Part shown: piece by piece, positions 1,917 through 10,934 of the stretch
Numbering within the stretch: position 1 is the stretch's first letter
How the letters are laid out: each line of letters starts with the position of its first letter
Assembly (NCBI RefSeq): GCF_002257665.1
Contig: NZ_MQWB01000001.1
Span: 880,515 to 944,514 of the forward strand
Length of the DNA stretch: 64,000 nt
Direction of reading: 5' to 3'
From: Rubricoccus marinus
GTDB lineage: Bacteria > Bacteroidota > Rhodothermia > Rhodothermales > Rubricoccaceae
The notes under the pieces: generated by a model
Told to the model about the DNA's origin: nothing
What the model saw: the letters and a program-made list of their open reading frames with translations, nothing else
Database searches by the model: none
Program-made: the position numbers and the translations under genes

Positions 1917-1936
1917 CCTCTGGCGCCAGAGGCCTA
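1914..1936. terminator. Bidirectional hairpin between convergent genes
   Basis: The perfect palindrome GCCTCTGGCGCCAGAGGC (1916-1933), extended by TA/TA to 1914-1936, overlaps the stop of the upstream plus-strand gene and the stop of rtcR on the other strand. It is a full-length copy of the dispersed motif and probably works as a two-way terminator. It lacks a T-run, so this is an inference from position and pairing. Confidence 0.55.
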
Positions 1937-3526
1937 CGCCTGCACGTCGGCCCACGCGAGGCCGAACTTGGCGAGGTACTTCCGCAGACGGTCGCTGTCG
2001 TTCGTGCTTGCGCGCCTCTGGCGCGACTGTGCGAACAGCGTGCGTCCGGCGTCGGAGAGCGTGCGGGACTGGCGGCAGACGCGGATCACGTCGGCGAGCT
2101 GGACGCGGTCGAAGCGGTCGAGCGCGGCGACGGCCTCGGCGTCCATGACCTCCGCCAGAAGCGCGTCGCCTTCCAGGCGGTCTGCGCCGCGCCAGTGGCG
2201 CCTGAGCCGCGCGATCTCGCCGTCCACTTCCGTATCGGTGATCCGTCCGCCAGAGGCCAGCGTGGCCATGCGGGTCACGGCGGCGTTGAGGTCGCGGAAG
2301 TTAGCCGTCCACGGCGCGTCCGGGCTCTCGGCGAAGCGGAGAAACCGGCCGCGGGCCTCGGTGGAGAAGCGCACCTGTCGACCGTGGGCGCGGGCGAAGT
2401 CGGCGAGCTCGAAGTCGAGGTTGGGCGCGAGGTCCTCGCGGCGGTCCGCGAGTCCGGGAAGCTCGAACGTCCACAGGTTGATCCGCGCGAGGAGATCGTC
2501 GCGGAAGGAGCCGTCGGCCACTCCGTCGTGCAGGTCCTTGTTGGTCCCCGCGATGAGTTGGAAGTCGCTCTTGCGCTCGCGGTCGGCGCCGACGGGCAGG
2601 AACGCCTTTTCCTCCAGCGCACGCAACAGCATCGCCTGTTCGTCCAGACCGAGTTCGCCGATCTCGTCCAGAAACAGGATCCCGCCATCGGCCTCGCGCA
2701 AGAGGCCGCCGCGCTCTTTGACGGCGCCGGTGAACGCGCCCTTGACGTGGCCGAAGAGCGCGCTCGCGGCCGTATCGCCCCGCAGCGTCGCGCAGTTGAC
2801 CTCCACGAAGTCGCCCGCGATCTGGGTGCGGGCGCGCTTGAGCTCGAAGATCTTCCGCGCGAGCCGGCTCTTGCCCGCGCCCGTCGGGCCGTTGAGCAGG
2901 ATGGGCGACTTGGAGCCGATCGCGACTCGCTCGATCTCGTCGATCAGCGCGTTGAACGCCTCGTTACGCGTCTCGATGCCGCTCTTGAGGTACGAGCGCG
3001 TGTCGGCCTGATGCTGCGCCTCTCGCGCCGCGATCCGGTCGTAGCGCGAGAGGTCGAGGTCGATCAGCCGGACCGTCCCCGCCGGGTCCCCGCGCTGATA
3101 GTCGGGAGAGGTTTGCACGATGCGCGCCGGGAAGTACCGCGCCTCCGTCAGCAGGAAAAAGCAGATCTGCGCGACGTGCGTGCCCGTCGTGAGGTGCACG
3201 AGGTAGTCCTCAGCCTCCACGTCGAAGGAGAAGCCTCTGGCGATGTCGTAGAGCGTGGCATAGACCTCCTCGAAGTCCCACGCGTCCTCCATTTCGAAGC
3301 TGTGGAGCCGCACCTCGGTCTCAGGCGAGACGAGCGCGATGTCTTCGACCACCTGCTCGGCCAGCGCCGTATACCGCGGCTGGTGAAGCAGCTCGTAGCG
3401 GTCGATGATGAGGTCCGGCTGCTGGCAGAGCGCGACGCTGGGACGCCATTTTTCCCAGCGCCGCGCGTCGCGCGAGGCCCGGTCCAGGGTGGCGCCGAGA
3501 AGGCCGAAAGCGACGGTGGGTTTCAT
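1934..3526 (-). CDS. rtcR: RtcR: CARF-domain sigma-54-dependent activator of the RNA repair operon
   Basis: 530 residues, close to the family's usual length. Residues 1-~180 match the RtcR sensory domain, which belongs to the CARF (nucleotide-ligand binding) superfamily; HLTTGTH (111-117) sits in the expected ligand-loop region. The AAA+ sigma-54 interaction domain follows, with Walker A GPTGAGKS (213-220), the sigma-54 contact motif GAFTGA (in GAFTGAVKERGG) and Walker B ILFLDEIGEL. The C-terminus carries a basic helix-turn-helix-like tail. It is divergent from rsr, which has a sigma-54-like promoter in its upstream region. In known systems RtcR switches on rtcBA, often with rsr and Y RNAs, when RNA is damaged. 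It probably acts on the whole rightward cluster, in response to an RNA end or nucleotide signal. Confidence 0.93.
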   Translation of the reverse strand: MKPTVAFGLLGATLDRASRDARRWEKWRPSVALCQQPDLIIDRYELLHQPRYTALAEQVVEDIALVSPETEVRLHSFEMEDAWDFEEVYATLYDIARGFSFDVEAEDYLVHLTTGTHVAQICFFLLTEARYFPARIVQTSPDYQRGDPAGTVRLIDLDLSRYDRIAAREAQHQADTRSYLKSGIETRNEAFNALIDEIERVAIGSKSPILLNGPTGAGKSRLARKIFELKRARTQIAGDFVEVNCATLRGDTAASALFGHVKGAFTGAVKERGGLLREADGGILFLDEIGELGLDEQAMLLRALEEKAFLPVGADRERKSDFQLIAGTNKDLHDGVADGSFRDDLLARINLWTFELPGLADRREDLAPNLDFELADFARAHGRQVRFSTEARGRFLRFAESPDAPWTANFRDLNAAVTRMATLASGGRITDTEVDGEIARLRRHWRGADRLEGDALLAEVMDAEAVAALDRFDRVQLADVIRVCRQSRTLSDAGRTLFAQSRQRRASTNDSDRLRKYLAKFGLAWADVQA

Positions 3527-4033: not shown

Positions 4034-5686
4034 ATGAACACCACGCTCTTCCGCACCCTCCGGGGCCGTTTCACTCCTGCCGCCGACGCCCTCAACGAGG
4101 CGCGCGCTCCGGCCTACGCCCTCAGCCCCAAGCAGGCGCTGGCGCAGATGGCCGCGACCGGCACGCTGAACGCCACCTTCTACGCCTCCGCCGAGACGCA
4201 GCTCGACACCATCCTGGCGCTCGCCGCCCAGGTGGAGCCCGAGTTCGTCGCGCAGACCGCGATTGTGGCGCGAGAGGAGGGCTACATGAAGGACGTGCCC
4301 GCGCTGCTCGCTGCCCACCTGGCGACCCGCGACGTGGCGATTCTGGAGCGGGTCTTCCCCCGCGTGATCGACAACGGCCGGATGCTCCGCAACTTCGTGC
4401 AGATCGTCCGCTCGGGAGCCGTAGGGCGGAAGTCGCTGGGTTCTGCTCCGCGTCGGATGGTCCGCGATTGGCTCGCTTCGCGCTCGGATGAGTCGCTGTT
4501 CCGTGCCTCGGTCGGCAACCAGCCGTCGCTGGCGGACATCGTCAAGATGGTCCACCCGCGGCCGGCGACCGAGACGCGGCGCGCGCTCTACGCCTACCTC
4601 ATCGGCCGCGAACACGACGCTTCGGCGCTGCCCGACCTCGTGCAGGCGTACGAGGCCTTCAAGGCCGATCCTCTGGCGCAGCCCGTCCCCGACGTGCCGT
4701 TCCAGATGATCGCGTCGCTGGGCTTCGAGACGCCAGAGGCTGAGCGGGCCGTCTGGGCCGAGATCACGCGGACCGCGCCGTGGCACGCCACGCGGATGAA
4801 CCTCAACGCCTTCGCGCGGCACGGCGCCTTCGACGTGCCCGGCGTGGCCGAGACGGTCGCCGCACGGCTCTCCGACCCGGAGGCGATCCGGCGGGCGCGG
4901 GTCTTCCCGTACCAGCTGTTCGTCGCCTGGGCGCAGACCGGCGGTGGCGTGGCACAGCACTCCGGCTTCGGCCAGTTCTTCCGCCGCATCTCTGGCACCC
5001 CGCCAGAGGCCTCTGGCGGGAAGGGGACGGTGCCCGCCATCGTGCGCGACGCGCTGCAGGACGCGATGGAAATCGCGATCGGCAACGTGCCCGAGATCCG
5101 CGGCAACGTCGTCGTCTGCCCCGATGTCTCGGGCTCCATGCAGAGCCCGGCCACGGGATACCGGCGCGGCTCCACCTCGGCCGTGCGGTGCGTGGACGTG
5201 GCGGCGCTCGTTGCGGCCTCGGTCGTGCGGAAGAACCCGCGCGCCCGCGTCCTGCCCTTCGAGCACCGCGTCGTAGACGTGGCGCTGAACGCGCGGGATT
5301 CGGTCGTTACCAACGCCCAGCGGCTCGCCGCCGTCGGCGGTGGCGGGACGGACTGCTCCGCGCCTCTGGCGCAGCTCGTCCGCGAAAAGGCCGACGTCGA
5401 CCTCGTGTTCTTTGTCTCCGACAACGAGTCCTGGGTGGACGCGGGCAACCCGCGCTCCGGCACGGCCACGATGAAAGCGTGGAACCAGATTAAGGCCCGC
5501 AACCCGGGCGCGAAGCTGGTCTGCCTCGACATCCAGCCGTACCGCACCGTCCAGGCGCAGCCGCGGGAGGACATCCTCCACGTCGGCGGCTTCTCGGACC
5601 GCGTCTTCGAAGTCGTGGCTGCCTTCGCCTCTGGCGAGAGCGGCGCCGACCACTGGGTCGGTCGGATCGCGCGCACGCCGATCTGA
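4034..5686 (+). CDS. rsr: Ro60-like TROVE/vWA RNA-binding protein (Rsr)
   Basis: 550 residues, typical of bacterial Ro60 orthologues. The ATG at 4034 is preceded by GGGGGA at a good ribosome-binding distance; the frame is open further upstream, but that part crosses repeats and the promoter. Residues ~1-340 are the helical HEAT-like TROVE ring, whose pore binds misfolded RNA 3' ends and whose outer surface binds Y RNA. The C-terminal third is a von Willebrand A domain with an intact MIDAS: DVSGSM, then GGTDCS, then SDNES. A PEASGG insertion made by the dispersed CCTCTGGCG motif lies in the linker before the vWA domain. Known Ro proteins tether structured RNAs to nucleases such as PNPase. The nine Y-like units directly downstream are its likely ligands. 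Confidence 0.95.
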   Translation: MNTTLFRTLRGRFTPAADALNEARAPAYALSPKQALAQMAATGTLNATFYASAETQLDTILALAAQVEPEFVAQTAIVAREEGYMKDVPALLAAHLATRDVAILERVFPRVIDNGRMLRNFVQIVRSGAVGRKSLGSAPRRMVRDWLASRSDESLFRASVGNQPSLADIVKMVHPRPATETRRALYAYLIGREHDASALPDLVQAYEAFKADPLAQPVPDVPFQMIASLGFETPEAERAVWAEITRTAPWHATRMNLNAFARHGAFDVPGVAETVAARLSDPEAIRRARVFPYQLFVAWAQTGGGVAQHSGFGQFFRRISGTPPEASGGKGTVPAIVRDALQDAMEIAIGNVPEIRGNVVVCPDVSGSMQSPATGYRRGSTSAVRCVDVAALVAASVVRKNPRARVLPFEHRVVDVALNARDSVVTNAQRLAAVGGGGTDCSAPLAQLVREKADVDLVFFVSDNESWVDAGNPRSGTATMKAWNQIKARNPGAKLVCLDIQPYRTVQAQPREDILHVGGFSDRVFEVVAAFASGESGADHWVGRIARTPI

Positions 5687-5687
5687 C

Positions 5688-5733
5688 CCGTCGGGCTCCC
5701 TCCTCGTGGTGGAGGAGGGAGCCGCCGCGACGG
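5688..5733 (+). terminator. Strong two-part hairpin after rsr
   Basis: Just after the rsr stop, 5694-5705 pairs perfectly with 5712-5723 (12 bp, loop GTGGTG). An outer stem CCGTCG (5688-5693) pairs with CGACGG (5728-5733) across a 4-nt bulge. There is no T-run. It could terminate the rsr mRNA, protect its 3' end, or mark a processing point between the mRNA and the RNA array. Confidence 0.55.
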
Positions 5734-5769
5734 CCCGAACGCCACCACGTTTGAATCCTGCTGATCGCG

Positions 5770-5862
5770 CCAGAGGCGGCGGAATGCCGCCGGGACTACA
5801 CGCCTGACACGCGTCGCCCCAATGGGTGATCGGTCCCGGCCCCTCTCGTCCACTGCCTCTGG
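5770..5862 (+). ncRNA. Y RNA-like unit 1 (two-hairpin head)
   Basis: Outer stem 5770-5777 (CCAGAGGC) pairs with 5855-5862 (GCCTCTGG). GGCGGAATG at 5778-5786 sits where other units have GGCGAATG. Inner stem GCCGGGAC (5789-5796) pairs perfectly with GTCCCGGC (5833-5840). The head has two small hairpins, ACGC/GCGT (5800-5803 with 5811-5814) and CGCCC/GGGTG (5815-5819 with 5824-5828). No T-arm sequence is present. The two-hairpin head recalls a minimal Y RNA whose arms only loosely imitate D and T arms. Confidence 0.7.
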
Positions 5863-5919
5863 CGGAATGGCCCGCGCCTCTGGCGCCAGAGGCCACCCCA
5901 TCACGGCATCCTGTGATGC

Positions 5920-5944
5920 GGACACACCCGCGGTGCGTCCCTAC
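5920..5944. repeat. Solitary diverged REP
   Basis: GGACACACCCGCGGTGCGTC followed by CCTAC matches the right-hand REP orientation with a few changes. No partner in the opposite orientation is present. It sits in the 126-nt gap between array units 1 and 2, the widest gap in the array. Confidence 0.75.
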
Positions 5945-5988
5945 GGGTGCCCTTCCTCAAACCCTCCCACTATGATTTGACCCCGACA

Positions 5989-6073
5989 CCTCTGGCGGAA
6001 TGCTGTGGAGGCTACATCGCTGTTAACGATGGCCCGCATGGGCTATGTCTCCGCGTCCCTCGTCCGCCAGAGG
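5989..6073 (+). ncRNA. Y RNA-like unit 2 (two-hairpin head)
   Basis: The outer stem CCTCTGGCGGA (5989-5999) pairs perfectly with TCCGCCAGAGG (6063-6073), so the dispersed motif has been built into the Ro stem. Inner stem GTGGAG (6005-6010) pairs with CTCCGC (6049-6054, one wobble). The conserved CTACAT follows the inner strand. The head carries hairpins ATCG/CGAT (6016-6019 with 6027-6030) and GCCC/GGGC (6032-6035 with 6040-6043). There is no canonical T loop. Confidence 0.7.
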
Positions 6074-6082
6074 CCACTCCCG

Positions 6083-6160
6083 GCCGTGAATGCCGGCGCG
6101 ACTACATCGGACCGTTGCAGCGGAAGCTGTGCGGTAGGTCGCGCCACGCCTCGTCACGGC
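6083..6160 (+). ncRNA. Y RNA-like unit 3 (single-arm head)
   Basis: Outer stem GCCGTGA (6083-6089) pairs with TCACGGC (6154-6160), a compensatory change from the GGCGA/TCGCC of other units. Inner stem GGCGCGAC (6095-6102) pairs perfectly with GTCGCGCC (6138-6145). The head is one arm: ACCG/CGGT (6111-6114 with 6132-6135) topped by a GGAA-capped hairpin. It is the shortest unit. The conserved AATGCC and CTACAT blocks are present. Confidence 0.75.
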
Positions 6161-6168
6161 TTCCTTCT

Positions 6169-6269
6169 CGCGGTGAATGCCGACGCTGACTACATGGTAA
6201 AGGCGCCTCTGGCGCCGACGGGTTCGAGTCCCGGCCCTTCGGGGACGTCGCGTCATTCTCGTCACCGCG
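6169..6269 (+). ncRNA. Y RNA-like unit 4 (T arm only)
   Basis: Outer stem CGCGGTGA (6169-6176) pairs with TCACCGCG (6262-6269). Inner stem GACGC-T-GAC (6182-6190, one bulged T) pairs with GTCGCGTC (6247-6254). The head holds a recognisable T arm: CGGG (6219-6222), loop TTCGAGT (6223-6229), CCCG (6230-6233). It is followed by a tiny CCC-TTCG-GGG hairpin (6235-6244) in place of an acceptor stem. The D arm is missing. A GGCGCCTCTGGCGCC palindrome precedes the T arm. This looks intermediate between the simple heads and the full tRNA heads. Confidence 0.75.
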
Positions 6270-6280
6270 TCTGTTTCCGC

Positions 6281-6411
6281 CAGCGGCGAATGCTGGACAG
6301 ACTATATGGCTAGAGCGCCCCGCGAGAGCGGGGAGGTCGCGGGTTCGAGCCCCGCCCGCCTTCGGGCGAGTAGCTCAGAACGACACGTCTGTCCCTTCCT
6401 CGTCGCCGCTG
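6281..6411 (+). ncRNA. Y RNA-like unit 5: permuted tRNA grafted at the D loop
   Basis: Outer stem CAGCGGCGA (6281-6289) pairs perfectly with TCGCCGCTG (6403-6411). Inner stem GGACAGAC (6295-6302) pairs with GTCTGTCC (6387-6394). The head reads as a tRNA opened in the D loop. D-loop GG (6308-6309) and D-stem 3' strand GAGC (6313-6316) come first. An anticodon-position hairpin CCCCGC/GCGGGG (6318-6323 with 6328-6333) follows, capped by GAGA. Then come the T arm GCGGG-TTCGAGC-CCCGC (6339-6355), an acceptor stem closed by TTCG (loop 6361-6364, one C-A mismatch), and TA plus D-stem 5' strand GCTC (6372-6375). It has no anticodon and no free acceptor end. Confidence 0.85.
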
Positions 6412-6432
6412 CTTGTTGTGAGTGCGTCGTCT

Positions 6433-6564
6433 GGCGAATGCCGACGGGACTACATGCCTACGGAGCCGAAGGTCGCGGGTTCGAATCCCGTCATCCCGAC
6501 TTACCGGGATGTAGCTCAGCTGGATAGAGCGTCGGTCTAAGGGTCCCGTTATCCCCTCGTCGCC
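6433..6564 (+). ncRNA. Y RNA-like unit 6: permuted tRNA grafted at the anticodon (Arg-like)
   Basis: Outer stem GGCGA (6433-6437) pairs with TCGCC (6560-6564). Inner stem GACGGGAC (6443-6450) pairs with GTCCCGTT (6543-6550). The head has T arm GCGGG-TTCGAAT-CCCGT (6475-6491), acceptor CATCCCG (6492-6498) pairing perfectly with CGGGATG (6505-6511) across loop ACTTAC, D stem GCTC/GAGC (6514-6517 with 6527-6530) and anticodon stem TCGG/CCGA (6532-6535 with 6466-6469). The loop remnant TCTAAGG recalls arginine tRNAs. This is the clearest permuted tRNA in the array: every arm is present, but the anticodon loop is replaced by the Ro stem. Confidence 0.9.
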
Positions 6565-6594
6565 TCTGGCGGCACACTCTACTGTTTCCACCTT

Positions 6595-6718
6595 CGCGGC
6601 GAATGCCGACGAGACTACATCTGACACAGGAGGCCGCGGGTTCAAATCCCGCCCGTCCCCGGACGGTAGCTCAGCCCGGCAGAGCACCTGCTTGTCTCGT
6701 CACCTCCTCGTCGCCGCG
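6595..6718 (+). ncRNA. Y RNA-like unit 7: permuted tRNA grafted at the anticodon
   Basis: Outer stem CGCGGCGA (6595-6602) pairs with TCGCCGCG (6711-6718). Inner stem GACGAGAC (6608-6615) pairs perfectly with GTCTCGTC (6694-6701). The head has T arm GCGGG-TTCAAAT-CCCGC (6636-6652), acceptor CCGTC/GACGG (6653-6657 with 6662-6666, loop CCCG), D stem GCTC/GAGC (6669-6672 with 6682-6685) and anticodon stem CCTG/CAGG (6687-6690 with 6627-6630). The source tRNA family is unclear; the anticodon-stem region CACCTGCTT resembles several families. Confidence 0.88.
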
Positions 6719-6736
6719 ATCCTTTGCACGCCTGCA

Positions 6737-6867
6737 GGCGAATGCCTGCGAGACTCCCTCGCCCGTGCCGGTTCGAGTCCGGCCGCCCCGACTTACCGGG
6801 GCGTGGCGGAACTGGTAGACGCAGCGGGGTTCGCCCCGCGGGGTCGGTCTCGCTCGTTCTCGTCGCC
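6737..6867 (+). ncRNA. Y RNA-like unit 8: permuted tRNA-Leu-like body grafted at the variable arm
   Basis: Outer stem GGCGA (6737-6741) pairs with TCGCC (6863-6867). Inner stem GCGAGAC (6748-6754) pairs with GTCTCGC (6847-6853). The head has T arm GCCGG-TTCGAGT-CCGGC (6767-6783), acceptor CGCCCCG/CGGGGCG (6784-6790 with 6797-6803, loop ACTTAC as in unit 6), and a D arm reading TGGCGGAACTGGTAGACGC, the hallmark of leucine tRNAs. Next is an anticodon-position hairpin GCGGGG/CCCCGC (6824-6829 with 6834-6839) capped by TTCG. The Ro stem replaces the long variable arm typical of class II tRNAs. There is no anticodon. Confidence 0.88.
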
Positions 6868-6921
6868 TCTGGCGGCGTGCGCCCTCGCCTCGCCAGAGGC
6901 CTGTTCTTTCCTCCGCCACAG

Positions 6922-7035
6922 GGCGAATGCCCGTGGGACTACACGGTCGCGGGTTCGAATCCCGCCGTGCCCGGTCCGCCGGGCGCGTAGCTCAGTCCGG
7001 TAGAGCATGAATCGTCCCGCACCTCTCTCGTCGCC
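6922..7035 (+). ncRNA. Y RNA-like unit 9: permuted tRNA without anticodon stem
   Basis: Outer stem GGCGA (6922-6926) pairs with TCGCC (7031-7035). Inner stem GTGGGAC (6933-6939) pairs with GTCCCGC (7014-7020, one wobble). The head has T arm GCGGG-TTCGAAT-CCCGC (6949-6965), acceptor CGTGCCCG/CGGGCGCG (6966-6973 with 6980-6987, loop GTCCGC) and D stem GCTC/GAGC (6990-6993 with 7003-7006). I see no anticodon stem; the Ro stem takes its place through ATGAATC and TACACG linkers. Confidence 0.86.
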
Positions 7036-7078
7036 TCTGACGGCGCGAAATCTCGCCTCGGGCGTCACGATGCAAATC

Positions 7079-7157
7079 GTAGGGGCACACCGCTGGTGTG
7101 TCCTCCCGCCAGAGCGCCAGCAGCCCGGCTGCGGACACACCAGCGGTGTGTCCCTAC
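7079..7157. repeat. REPIN 2
   Basis: REP at 7079-7103 (GTAGGGGCACACC then GCTGGTGTGTCC) and its inverted partner at 7133-7157, about 29 nt apart. It lies between array unit 9 and rtcB, so it is part of the rtcB leader if transcription runs through. The frame of rtcB stays open through it, but the start at 7200 excludes it. Confidence 0.92.
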
Positions 7158-7199
7158 GGGTGCCCGTTTCCTGTTTCGATTCCCAATCACACCCCTCCC

Positions 7200-8681
7200 A
7201 TGTCCACCATCATCCCAACCGGCGACGCCACCGCGATCCTGCCCGCGCGGGATACGTCGCTCACCCCCATCACCGTCATCGGCAACGAGGCCATCCGCGA
7301 GACCTTCGACGAAGGCTGCATCCGGCAGGCGCTCAACGCCCGCGAGGCCCCTGGCGTCTCGGGCGTCGTGCTCAACCCGGACGCGCACCTCGGCTACGGC
7401 GCGCCCGTTGGCTGCGCGATGTCGTCTCCGACGCACATCTACCCCGGCCCCGTCGGCGTCGACATCAAGTGCTCGATGAGCCTGCTCCAATTGGACCTCC
7501 CGGCCGACGCCGTGGACGACAAGCGGACGCGTCGCGCGCTCATCGAGGCGATTGAGGCACGCACCCCGACCGGTGCGGGTCGCAACCAGCGGTCCGTCCC
7601 CAAGGGCCGCGCAATCCCGCACGACGTGGCGTGGAAGGCCGTGACTGAAGGCGCCTCTGGCGACGTGCTGACCGCGATGGGCGTGCCCACGCACTGGGCC
7701 GAGCGCTGCGAAGACTCGTTCCACGTCGGACACGATGGGACGGCCGACGCGCTGCGCCAGCGGCTGACCGAACTCACCGAGACGGGCCAGTTCCGCAACG
7801 TGCCCAACAAGCTCTCGCAGCTCGGGACGTACGGCGGCGGTAACCACTTCGGCGAGTGCGAAGTCGTGGAAACGCAGGACGCCCCTACGGCTGAGCGATT
7901 CGGCCTGATCGATGGCGGCGTGGCCTACCTGACCCACTGCGGATCGCGCGGCTTCGGCTTCAACCTGGCCCAGATGGGCTTCGAGATGCTGGAGAAGCAC
8001 TTCGAGAAGTGGAATCTGGAGTACCCCGCCGGCGACAAGCAGTTGGCCTACGCGCCCCTCGGGACGCCAGAGGCCGACGCCTACCTCGACATGATGGCGC
8101 TCGGCGCCAACTTCGCGACGGTCAACCACATGCTCATCAACGCGCTCATCCTGGAGGCTTTCCAGGAGGTCATCCCCGGTACGTCGGGCGACCTCGTGTA
8201 CTTCATCTCGCACAACATCGCGCGAGAGGAAATCACGCCGACGGGCCGCCAGTGGGTGCACCGTAAGGGTGCCACGCGCGCTTTCCCGGCGGGCCACCCC
8301 GGCCTGGAAGGCACGCCCTTCGCCGACATCGGCCACCCGATCCTGCTCCCCGGCAATCCCCAGGCCGGGAGCGCGGTGATGGTGGCCGAGCCCGGCGCGG
8401 AGAAAAGTCAGTACTCCGTCAACCACGGCGCGGGGCGCCGGATGGGCCGCCGCCACGCCAAGCGGACGCTCGATCAGCGCACCGTGGACGCGTCGTTCAA
8501 CGATGCGGACATCCTCACGAACTGCCGTCAGTACCCGATCGACGAGGCGCCCGCGGCCTACAAGGACTTCGACGAGGTCCTGGCGTCGGTCGAGACGGCG
8601 GGCCTCGCGCGGTCGGTCGCCCGGCTGAAGGCGCGGTTCGTGATCAAAGACGCCGACAAGCAGTACGGCGGCGCGGCGTGA
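7200..8681 (+). CDS. rtcB: RtcB RNA ligase
   Basis: 493 residues, nearer the longer archaeal-type RtcB than the ~408-residue E. coli protein. It joins RNA 2',3'-cyclic phosphate or 3'-phosphate ends to 5'-OH ends using GTP and Mn2+. Metal and guanylylation motifs are intact: DAHLGYGAPVG (61-71), GVDIKCSM (Asp88, Cys91), GGGNHFGEC, HCGSRG, and NHGAGRRMGRRHAK with the nucleophilic His. The ATG at 7200 is chosen because the protein from here begins like other family members; the upstream in-frame stretch is REPIN sequence. The ribosome-binding site is weak. It lies downstream of rsr and the array and upstream of the RAYT gene and rtcA. The array RNAs and cleaved tRNAs are plausible substrates, but nothing in the sequence proves this. 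Confidence 0.96.
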   Translation: MSTIIPTGDATAILPARDTSLTPITVIGNEAIRETFDEGCIRQALNAREAPGVSGVVLNPDAHLGYGAPVGCAMSSPTHIYPGPVGVDIKCSMSLLQLDLPADAVDDKRTRRALIEAIEARTPTGAGRNQRSVPKGRAIPHDVAWKAVTEGASGDVLTAMGVPTHWAERCEDSFHVGHDGTADALRQRLTELTETGQFRNVPNKLSQLGTYGGGNHFGECEVVETQDAPTAERFGLIDGGVAYLTHCGSRGFGFNLAQMGFEMLEKHFEKWNLEYPAGDKQLAYAPLGTPEADAYLDMMALGANFATVNHMLINALILEAFQEVIPGTSGDLVYFISHNIAREEITPTGRQWVHRKGATRAFPAGHPGLEGTPFADIGHPILLPGNPQAGSAVMVAEPGAEKSQYSVNHGAGRRMGRRHAKRTLDQRTVDASFNDADILTNCRQYPIDEAPAAYKDFDEVLASVETAGLARSVARLKARFVIKDADKQYGGAA

Positions 8682-8815: not shown

Positions 8816-8886
8816 GCGGAGATGCGAATCGGTAGGCCGCCAGAGGCTCCGTGTTAGAACGCCACCCACCCGTTGTCTATCGGGCC

Positions 8887-9462
8887 ATGCCGTTCGACCC
8901 CGACCGACATCACCGCCGTTCGGTTCGCCTGCGTGACCTCTCGTACGCGGAGCCGGGCCTGTACTTCGTGACGATCTGTACGCACGGGCGCCAGAGGCTT
9001 TTCGGAGACGTCGGCGCGGGCGAGATGGTGCTGTCGGATCTCGGGCGTATCGCGCACGACGAATGGCTTAGGACGCCAGAGGTCCGGCCGTACGTGGTGC
9101 TGGATGCGTTCGTGGTGATGCCGGATCACGTGCACCTGTTGTTTGGGATTCTGCCGCATGAGGGAAATGCCGAGGCGCCGCCGCCGCCGCCCGCGGATGG
9201 GGCGGGACATACCAGCGGCGTGTCTCCACGTCGGTTTGGGAACGCTGTGCCTCATTCCGTGCCGTCCATCATGCGGATGTACAAATCCGTCGTGACGAAA
9301 CGCATTCGCGCTCTCGATCCGACGGTGCGCTTATGGCAGGCGCGATACCACGACCGCATCGTCCGCACCGATCGAGAGGCCGACGCCCTGCGCCGGTACA
9401 TCCATGAGAACCCCATGCGCTGGGCCGCTGGCGAGGACCGTGCCGACGGGCATCGCGCCTGA
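8887..9462 (+). CDS. REP-associated tyrosine transposase (RAYT, Y1_Tnp)
   Basis: 191 residues. RAYTs are single-copy, apparently domesticated relatives of IS200/IS605 transposases that act on REP DNA. The ATG at 8887 gives MPFDPDRHHRRSVRLRDLSY then YFVTICTHGR, the usual family beginning. The HUH metal site is in MPDHVHLLF. The C-terminal RYIHENPMRW is a RAYT hallmark, and a Tyr in the LWQARYHDRIVR region is the likely nucleophile. The linker between the HUH motif and the MYKSVVTKRI helix encodes GHTSGVS, which comes from an in-frame REP (9205-9229). REPINs flank the gene on both sides. It is unusual to find it between rtcB and rtcA; no link to RNA repair can be read directly from the protein. 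Confidence 0.92.
   Translation: MPFDPDRHHRRSVRLRDLSYAEPGLYFVTICTHGRQRLFGDVGAGEMVLSDLGRIAHDEWLRTPEVRPYVVLDAFVVMPDHVHLLFGILPHEGNAEAPPPPPADGAGHTSGVSPRRFGNAVPHSVPSIMRMYKSVVTKRIRALDPTVRLWQARYHDRIVRTDREADALRRYIHENPMRWAAGEDRADGHRA
9205..9229. repeat. REP inside the RAYT coding sequence
   Basis: GGACATACCAGCGGCGTGTC then TCCAC matches the right-hand REP with four or so changes and keeps the reading frame. It falls in the variable linker of the RAYT, so the protein is probably not broken. Confidence 0.8.
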
Positions 9463-9750: not shown

Positions 9751-9878
9751 GACCTGACACGTCGCGTGACGAAGACCTGAGTGGGCCTTCGGTCGCGCGG
9801 CCTCCCGCGTGATCCGCCTGCCAGCGCCCCGGCGGCTCACGATGAGCTTCCGGGGCGCTGTTGTATTCCCCCGGCCCC

Positions 9879-10934
9879 ATGACCACGTCCGAAAGCCCGC
9901 CCCAGCACGTCATCGACGGCGCGCAGGGCGAAGGCGGAGGCCAGATCCTCCGCACCTCCATCGGCCTCTCGCTCGTCACCGGCGACGCGATCCAGATCGA
10001 CCACATCCGCGCCGGTCGCCAGCGGCCCGGCCTCTTGCGCCAGCACTTGACGGCCGTCCTCGCGGCGTGTGAGATCTCGGGCGCCGAGGCCTCTGGCGCG
10101 ACGCTCGGGTCGGACTCGCTCACGTTCCGTCCGGGCGCGGTCCAGCCCGGCACGTACCGGTTTGCCGTCGGCACGGCCGGGAGCGCGACGCTCGTGCTCC
10201 AGACGGTCCTGCCCGCGCTCCTCGTCGCCAGAGGCCCGTCGCAGGTCACGGTGGAGGGCGGCACGCACAACCCGTCTGCGCCGACGTTCGACTTCCTCTC
10301 GCGCTCCTTCCTGCCGCTCATCGAGCGGATGGGGCCGCGCGTGAGCGCGCGTCTGGAGCGCTACGGGTTCTACCCCGCGGGTGGAGGCCGCATCGTCGTG
10401 GACATCGAGCCCGCGGAGCGACTCGCGCCGCTGGACCTGACCGAGCGCGGCGACGTGCACGGCATAGAGGTCCGTGCCCTCGTGGCGAACCTGCCGGGCA
10501 AGATCGGCCAGCGCGAGCTCAAGACGGTCGCCAAGGCTCTCGGCGGCCCCGAGGACGCCTACACGATGCGCCAGATCAAGGACTCCGCCGGCCCGGGCAA
10601 CGTCCTCTTCGCCGAGGTCCAGACCGCTGCGCTCACGACCGTCGTGACCGAGTTCGGCATGAAGGGCCGTCCGGCGCAGCGCGTGGCCTCTGGCGTGGCG
10701 AAAGCCGTGCAGGCGTACCTCGCGAGCGATGCGCCCGTGGGACCGTACCTCGCGGATCAGGTGCTCGTGCCTCTGGCGCTCGCCGCGAGGGAGGGCGCCG
10801 GGAGCAGCGTCTTCCGCGCGACGGAGTGGACGCGCCACGCACAGACAAACGCCGAGGTCATCGAGCGCCACCTCGGCGTGACGATCCGCGCGCTGCCCGA
10901 GCCCTCGGGCGCGGTCCGCGTCCTCGTGGGCTGA
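9879..10934 (+). CDS. rtcA: RtcA RNA 3'-terminal phosphate cyclase
   Basis: 351 residues, normal for the family. It converts RNA 3'-phosphate to 2',3'-cyclic phosphate with ATP, making ends that RtcB can use. Motifs: GEGGGQILRTS at the N-terminus, RPGLLRQHLTAV, VEGGTHNPSAPTFDFL, GGGRIVVD, and TRHAQTN near the C-terminus containing the His that is adenylylated. The ATG at 9879 is preferred over a TTG at 9861 because EGGGQ is then at the usual distance from the start. It is separated from rtcB by the RAYT gene and REPs, whereas rtcB and rtcA are usually adjacent. Confidence 0.95.
   Translation: MTTSESPPQHVIDGAQGEGGGQILRTSIGLSLVTGDAIQIDHIRAGRQRPGLLRQHLTAVLAACEISGAEASGATLGSDSLTFRPGAVQPGTYRFAVGTAGSATLVLQTVLPALLVARGPSQVTVEGGTHNPSAPTFDFLSRSFLPLIERMGPRVSARLERYGFYPAGGGRIVVDIEPAERLAPLDLTERGDVHGIEVRALVANLPGKIGQRELKTVAKALGGPEDAYTMRQIKDSAGPGNVLFAEVQTAALTTVVTEFGMKGRPAQRVASGVAKAVQAYLASDAPVGPYLADQVLVPLALAAREGAGSSVFRATEWTRHAQTNAEVIERHLGVTIRALPEPSGAVRVLVG

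Follow-up and report, generated by a model that had tools for sequence, protein, structure and literature searches.

What role Ro60 and Y RNAs play in bacteria, and what place they have in a tRNA-mending operon, is an open question. In a stretch of 64,000 nucleotides (nt) from Rubricoccus marinus (the window; contig NZ_MQWB01000001.1, positions 880,515 to 944,514), nine consecutive units, U1 to U9, lie between rsr, the gene for bacterial Ro60, and the RNA ligase gene rtcB. An earlier sequence-only reading had described these units as Y RNA-like and had proposed a dedicated RNA family that Ro60 uses for many different tasks. Our analysis makes it fairly probable that the array encodes nine Y RNAs, mostly with tRNA-mimicking heads, which would serve as tethers or decoys in an RNA-repair locus. 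The units, their stem, their head architectures, their conservation and their locus are computational observations. By comparison with tRNA, the heads appear to comprise anticodon arms (U1, U2), tRNAs opened at the anticodon (U6, U7 and U9, as well as U8, which has a hairpin in addition) and tRNAs opened in the D-loop (U5, U4).

The unit count given by the sequence-only reading was recovered in full. A finder that required motifs of the GAATG and YTNGTC types together with two helices, one outer and one inner, detected all nine units, every one on the + strand, and returned only 0.04-0.06 units per locus in dinucleotide-shuffled sequence. R1, a covariance model built from an 11-sequence alignment (A1) of U5 and ten relatives from other loci, also matched 9/9 units at 16.6 to 110 bits, with U8 as the weakest match (E 0.05). 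For a non-circular test of the stem, units were defined by sequence motifs alone without regard to pairing, giving 272 units in 81 loci. All four outer-stem bases paired in 82% of cognate strands; the figure fell to 20% when partners were swapped and to 19% when they were drawn from within one locus. Among the motif-defined units of the window, 7/9 paired all four tested bases and 2/9 paired three. The claimed two-part stem with covarying outer strands is borne out by these numbers, the inner strand does usually end in TACAT (the exceptions are U8 with TCCCT and U5 with TATAT), and covariation in related genomes, whose absence had been named beforehand as one of the possible refutations, was found. 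The array adjoins rsr, and its units have a long basal Ro-type stem, formed from their 5' and 3' ends and kept by covariation. Together with Rfam YrlA matches and the rsr-rtcB position, this covarying stem makes the proposed identity as bacterial Y RNAs very likely.

In U6, U7 and U9 the head runs from T-arm through an acceptor stem closed by a loop to the D-arm, which is the plan published for YrlA, where the anticodon is the point at which the tRNA is opened (PMC8394870). U8 follows the YrlA order with a class-II (Leu-like) D-arm and then a further hairpin on its 3' side, so that the T-arm, acceptor, D-arm order of YrlA (RF02553) is present in all four. The Rfam YrlA model passes its cut-off in U7 and U9 and scores U6, U8 and U5 below it (Table 1). 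Salmonella YrlA (PDB 6CU1, cited in PMC8394870) shares its stem, head order and place between rsr and rtcB with U6, U7, U9 and in part with U8, which differs by the added hairpin and the class-II-like D-arm; in U5 and U4, by contrast, the tRNA is opened in the D-loop and a hairpin is retained at the anticodon position, and the window holds nine units, not one or a few. The acceptor of U6, CGGGATG/CATCCCG, is that of the genome's own tRNA-Pro CGG. Mimicry of particular isotypes was rejected after comparing the heads with the genome's 44 tRNAs, as the totals do not separate, although the 3' half of U6 fits Pro(CGG) and the D-arm of U8 fits Leu. Elsewhere, in YrlA-type heads at L088:7886-7998 and L081:4828-4942, the 3' strand of the acceptor is followed by an internal CCA, which might point to descent from joined or tandem tRNA genes.

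The head of U5 consists of GG-CTAGAGC, a GAGA-tetraloop hairpin at the anticodon position, AGGTC, a T-arm, a TTCG-closed acceptor stem and TAGCTCA, with a D-stem of GAGC and GCTC that spans the whole head. Units of this kind from eleven different loci gave a good alignment and folded to a single consensus in which 22/29 pairs are changed on both sides. When R1 was searched against 87 loci, 26 matches scored 77-112.6 bits, followed by a gap down to 62 bits, and 15 of the 26 were outside the model's training set. Pseudomonadota, Acidobacteriota, Planctomycetota, Verrucomicrobiota and Armatimonadota are represented among these members, as are the Rhodothermales through the window and G006, a genome of the same family, so the D-loop-split class spans at least six phyla; Rhizobium and Methylosinus plasmids gave two further matches at 96 and 75 bits. 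Across the 26 members, 96% of cells pair, compared to 75% when shuffled and 34-55% with slid partners, and 25/29 pairs show changes on both sides, in an alignment that was fitted to R1 and favours structure, as the original A1 alignment was not. Two compensatory changes were seen in the split D-stem, GCGC/GCGC in L069 and GAGT/ACTC in L104. The 3' D-half takes one of two places, ahead of the T-arm or following the 5' half, and no unit has it in both (0/17 vs 106/166, Fisher 1.3e-7). R1 positions 27-107 also match real tRNA genes of this genome, in keeping with a head that follows tRNA order starting at the D-loop. A first, strict D-split filter had been discarded for its chance matches, and the motif and covariance-model tests were used instead.

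The loops at the anticodon position of this class are 4 nt long in 18/26 members and GNRA or UNCG in 14/26, while 0/26 are anticodon-like; tetraloops of the U5 class would presumably withstand anticodon nucleases. U4 has the D-loop-split head in a shortened form that runs GGTAAAGGC, hairpin, T-arm and short acceptor-like stem, without the 5' half of the D-arm. U5 lacks the T-arm, acceptor, D-arm order and is not classed as YrlA, because its 3' D-half precedes the T-arm and because it belongs to a separate class in the R1 search. We are highly confident, from the comparative evidence, that the D-loop-split class is real. Across ten of these loci, a single Y unit exceeds the Rfam cut-off; Rfam detects only a small part of these RNAs, and the D-loop-opened class escapes it. 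A Salmonella rsr-rtcB fragment filed as phage (L181, OR851267.1) contains, besides YrlB and YrlA, a third Y-like unit (922-1037) immediately ahead of rtcB, which matches R1 at 54 bits (E 8e-12), is absent from Rfam and has no name that we found in the operon literature. This fragment had no near match in E. coli genomes.

In U1 and U2 the first hairpin has a 7-nt loop showing the pattern typical of anticodon loops (C32-U33 and A37), a second hairpin follows, and both are present in the predicted lowest-energy folds. The U2 loop, CTGTTAA, is identical to the anticodon loop of the genome's own tRNA-Asn. Anticodon-like 7-nt loops were found in 22/91 heads that have no T-arm, whereas dinucleotide shuffling gave 1.2 and never more than 5 in 300 rounds. 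Chance or T-arm-like loops account for a few of these 22. The loops recur across distant phyla (CTGTCAC in L123, L129, L134, L143 and L184; CTGATAA in L072 and L136), and 4/11 distinct loops are identical to anticodon loops of the window's own tRNAs: CTGTTAA for Asn, CTGTCAC for Asp, CTCTCAC for Glu and CTCCAAA for Trp. L184, from Methylosinus trichosporium OB3b, combines anticodon-arm with D-loop-split units. A sequence alignment of these heads was rejected because it misplaced the loops. Salmonella YrlB (RF02565) resembles U1 to U3 in its shortness, its stem and the position of its single hairpin (CATC-TTTCCC-GATG in the Salmonella fragment), whereas U1 and U2 have anticodon-type 7-nt loops and a second hairpin; the Rfam YrlB model, which does find Salmonella YrlB, had no match in 5600-7200 up to E 1. 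The loop statistics argue that anticodon-arm heads are probably a real form. The sequence-only reading had seen that the heads change and had overlooked that they are mostly rearranged tRNA pieces; for this reason its "many different tasks" are better read as many different tRNA surfaces. Its dedicated family stands insofar as the units are Y RNAs, most of them being of a known kind, YrlA or YrlB, that it had left unnamed.

Is an array of nine exceptional? The interval between rsr and rtcB or rtcA is complete in 69 loci, of which 3 have a single unit, 13 have two units, 21 have three, 19 have four, 9 have five, 2 have six, 1 has seven and 1, the window, has nine. All of these counts are lower bounds since the finder overlooks some units, and the locus sample is skewed toward Rsr proteins close to the window's. 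The covariance model gives seven units in L069, and eight are listed in L170; scattered among tRNA genes, about 8 units occur in L077, a Pyrinomonadaceae contig, and about 9 in L179, which is viral. The window remains the sole one of the 69 with nine, as the sequence-only reading's sense of something unusual implied, but multi-unit arrays are the rule (median 3), and this largest compact array seen is the tail of a continuous range and no different kind. In L077:852-5186, ~25 tRNA genes lie upstream of rsr with about eight Y units in and around them, and the L179 contig encodes Rsr and carries about nine Y-like units along with tRNA-like matches.

The age of the units bears on the leading alternative, that this is a plain YrlA/YrlB array whose sole role is tethering or gating an Rsr-PNPase degradation machine and whose head variety is meaningless drift among copies. 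Five units match Rfam YrlA, YrlA-PNPase binding has been described (PMC8394870), and multi-unit loci are common, so spare copies could drift. However, U2, U4, U5, U6 and U7 are each 74-83% like a unit of G006, a member of the same family and another genus, and closer to these orthologs than to any neighbour in the window. Recent tandem duplication was rejected on account of this pattern, which indicates that the unit types are old and have been kept apart and so speaks against drift among recent copies. The D-loop-split form is moreover a discrete covarying class in six phyla, and anticodon-like loops are strongly enriched. On balance we regard a plain array as unlikely, though it is the alternative that keeps the most weight.

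The units share their locus with rtcR, rtcB and rtcA, which with rsr and Y RNAs make up the gene set of the RNA-repair operon (Table 1). Rsr keeps the vWA motifs DVSGS, GGTDC and DNE, whose positions were checked, and resembles the Deinococcus Rsr structure 2NVO. The Salmonella rsr-yrlBA-rtcBA operon has this gene set and the RtcR regulator in common with the window; its fragment holds YrlB, YrlA and the unnamed D-loop-split-like third unit, compared to nine units here. In Salmonella, broken tRNAs induce the operon, and RtcR switches it on upon binding tRNA fragments with 2',3'-cyclic phosphate ends (PMC7790460). A sigma-54-type site (GG-N10-GC) lies upstream of rsr in 39/64 rtcR-linked loci, compared to 1.6% in shuffled sequence.

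Table 1. Y RNA units and repair genes of the rsr-rtcB locus (positions in the window).
Feature	Position	Strand	Description
rtcR	1934..3526	-	RtcR regulatory domain (Pfam RtcR PF06956, E 2e-79) and sigma-54 activator (Sigma54_activat, E 8e-49); divergent from rsr
rsr	4034..5686	+	Bacterial Ro60; Pfam vWA_Ro60 and TROVE; PDB 2NVO, E 1.5e-20
U1	5776..5857	+	Y stem; anticodon-arm-like hairpin ACGC-CTGACAC-GCGT and second hairpin; R1 31.4 bits
U2	5992..6071	+	Y stem; CATCG-CTGTTAA-CGATG and second hairpin; R1 35.8 bits; fold z -3.6; ortholog in L170 at 75%
U3	6082..6161	+	Y stem; simple hairpin head, unassigned as to tRNA part; R1 38.8 bits; fold z -3.3; relatives in L064 and L172
U4	6169..6269	+	Y stem; putative truncated D-loop-split head; R1 47.4 bits; ortholog in L170 at 80%
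U5	6281..6411	+	Y stem; putative complete tRNA mimic opened in D-loop; R1 110 bits; Rfam YrlA 32.6 bits
U6	6431..6567	+	YrlA-type, putative tRNA mimic opened at anticodon; Rfam YrlA 54.6 bits; ortholog in L170 at 83%
U7	6594..6719	+	YrlA-type; Rfam YrlA 73.0 bits (cut-off 69)
U8	6734..6870	+	T-arm, acceptor, class-II D-arm, extra 3' hairpin; Rfam YrlA 45.2 bits; R1 16.6 bits
U9	6919..7038	+	YrlA-type; Rfam YrlA 73.2 bits (cut-off 69)
rtcB	7200..8681	+	RNA ligase; Pfam RtcB, E 5e-101
rtcA	9861..10934	+	RNA 3'-phosphate cyclase; Pfam RTC, E 5e-75

How the array might work can be sketched from these parallels. Broken tRNAs would activate RtcR, the array would be transcribed under its control and cut into separate Y RNAs, and, by homology, each two-part stem would dock on the Ro60 ring formed by Rsr. 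The resulting Rsr-Y particles could then present several tRNA surfaces simultaneously. As tethers, they would hold tRNA-handling proteins such as PNPase and tRNA-binding enzymes at Rsr; as decoys, their heads would occupy tRNA nucleases while RtcA and RtcB mend broken tRNAs. For YrlA, modification by tRNA enzymes and binding of PNPase by the YrlA complex have been described (PMC8394870), and a decoy role has already been proposed (PMC7790460). Heads of the U1/U2 type may be the better decoy candidates, because YrlA has no anticodon and they have an anticodon-like loop. The Deinococcus particle of Y RNA with Rsr and PNPase (RYPER) has the Rsr ortholog (2NVO) and the tether logic in common with the window; its function is known from the literature (PMC7790460, PMC8394870), and the comparison made here covers Rsr. 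The tether or decoy role is advanced here as a tentative proposal.

The array could instead be a structured part of the rsr-rtcB mRNA, an attenuator or mRNA stabiliser acting in cis, as its units are packed with spacers of 7-48 nt except for one 134-nt gap and all point in one direction between two operon genes. In some loci, however, the units precede rsr (L077, L128) or are distant from it, and the literature on Salmonella YrlA and YrlB, the closest cases to have been studied, treats them as noncoding RNAs (PMC9879122), which leaves a cis element improbable. Non-functional remnants of a degraded tRNA gene cluster or of tRNA-gene insertions are the least credible source, for although the T-arm, acceptor and D-arm pieces are highly tRNA-like, one Rfam tRNA match spans two units and some related loci adjoin real tRNA arrays (L077), ARAGORN finds no tRNA gene in the array, the pieces recur in many phyla in a fixed permuted order, with loops linking them and a covarying stem around them, and covariation already refutes such an origin for the array as a whole.

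Several observations weigh against an array of tRNA-mimicking Y RNAs under RtcR. No correctly spaced sigma-54 promoter is present in the window, where the best candidate, TGGCACGGTGTTGT, is one base short and was dropped for its wrong spacing. The split class shows hardly any variation in its D-stem, leaving direct covariation there to two sequences, and no head clearly matches one isotype. Lowest-energy folds of U5 and U8 do not give a tRNA shape, and the shape proposed for both comes from comparative evidence; U6, U9 and U1 individually fold barely better than shuffles (z -1.1 to -1.7). Finally, a word repeated throughout the genome, the 9-mer GCCTCTGGC / GCCAGAGGC, overlaps parts of U2, U4, U6, U8 and U9, coincides with portions of some 3' outer strands and could mimic conservation.

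A wider and more speculative proposal, which we hold with considerable doubt, is that Ro60 loci encode sets of tRNA mimics that jointly sample the tRNA surface, including an unrecognised D-loop-opened, anticodon-less form (in ~30% of the rsr loci examined, in six phyla) and anticodon-arm heads, and that these would act as decoys and tethers when tRNAs are under attack and RtcB and RtcA are repairing them. Priority for the D-loop-opened and anticodon-arm forms is uncertain, as they may have been noted before. A second widespread tRNA rearrangement in Y RNAs and the anticodon-arm heads nevertheless provide concrete candidates for what the particles imitate, and decoy or tether roles become testable unit by unit.

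Two repeats were also seen in this genome. The 9-mer GCCTCTGGC / GCCAGAGGC has 14,385 copies in the 4.43-Mb genome, compared to 195 for a read-backwards control and just 136 in the same-genus genome G001, which marks it as a highly iterated word specific to this species, much like HIP1 of cyanobacteria. Between rtcB and rtcA, a probable REP-associated transposase, judged by eye from the sequence, lies at 8851-9462 and is surrounded by REP-like GGACACACC..GGTGTGTCC copies.
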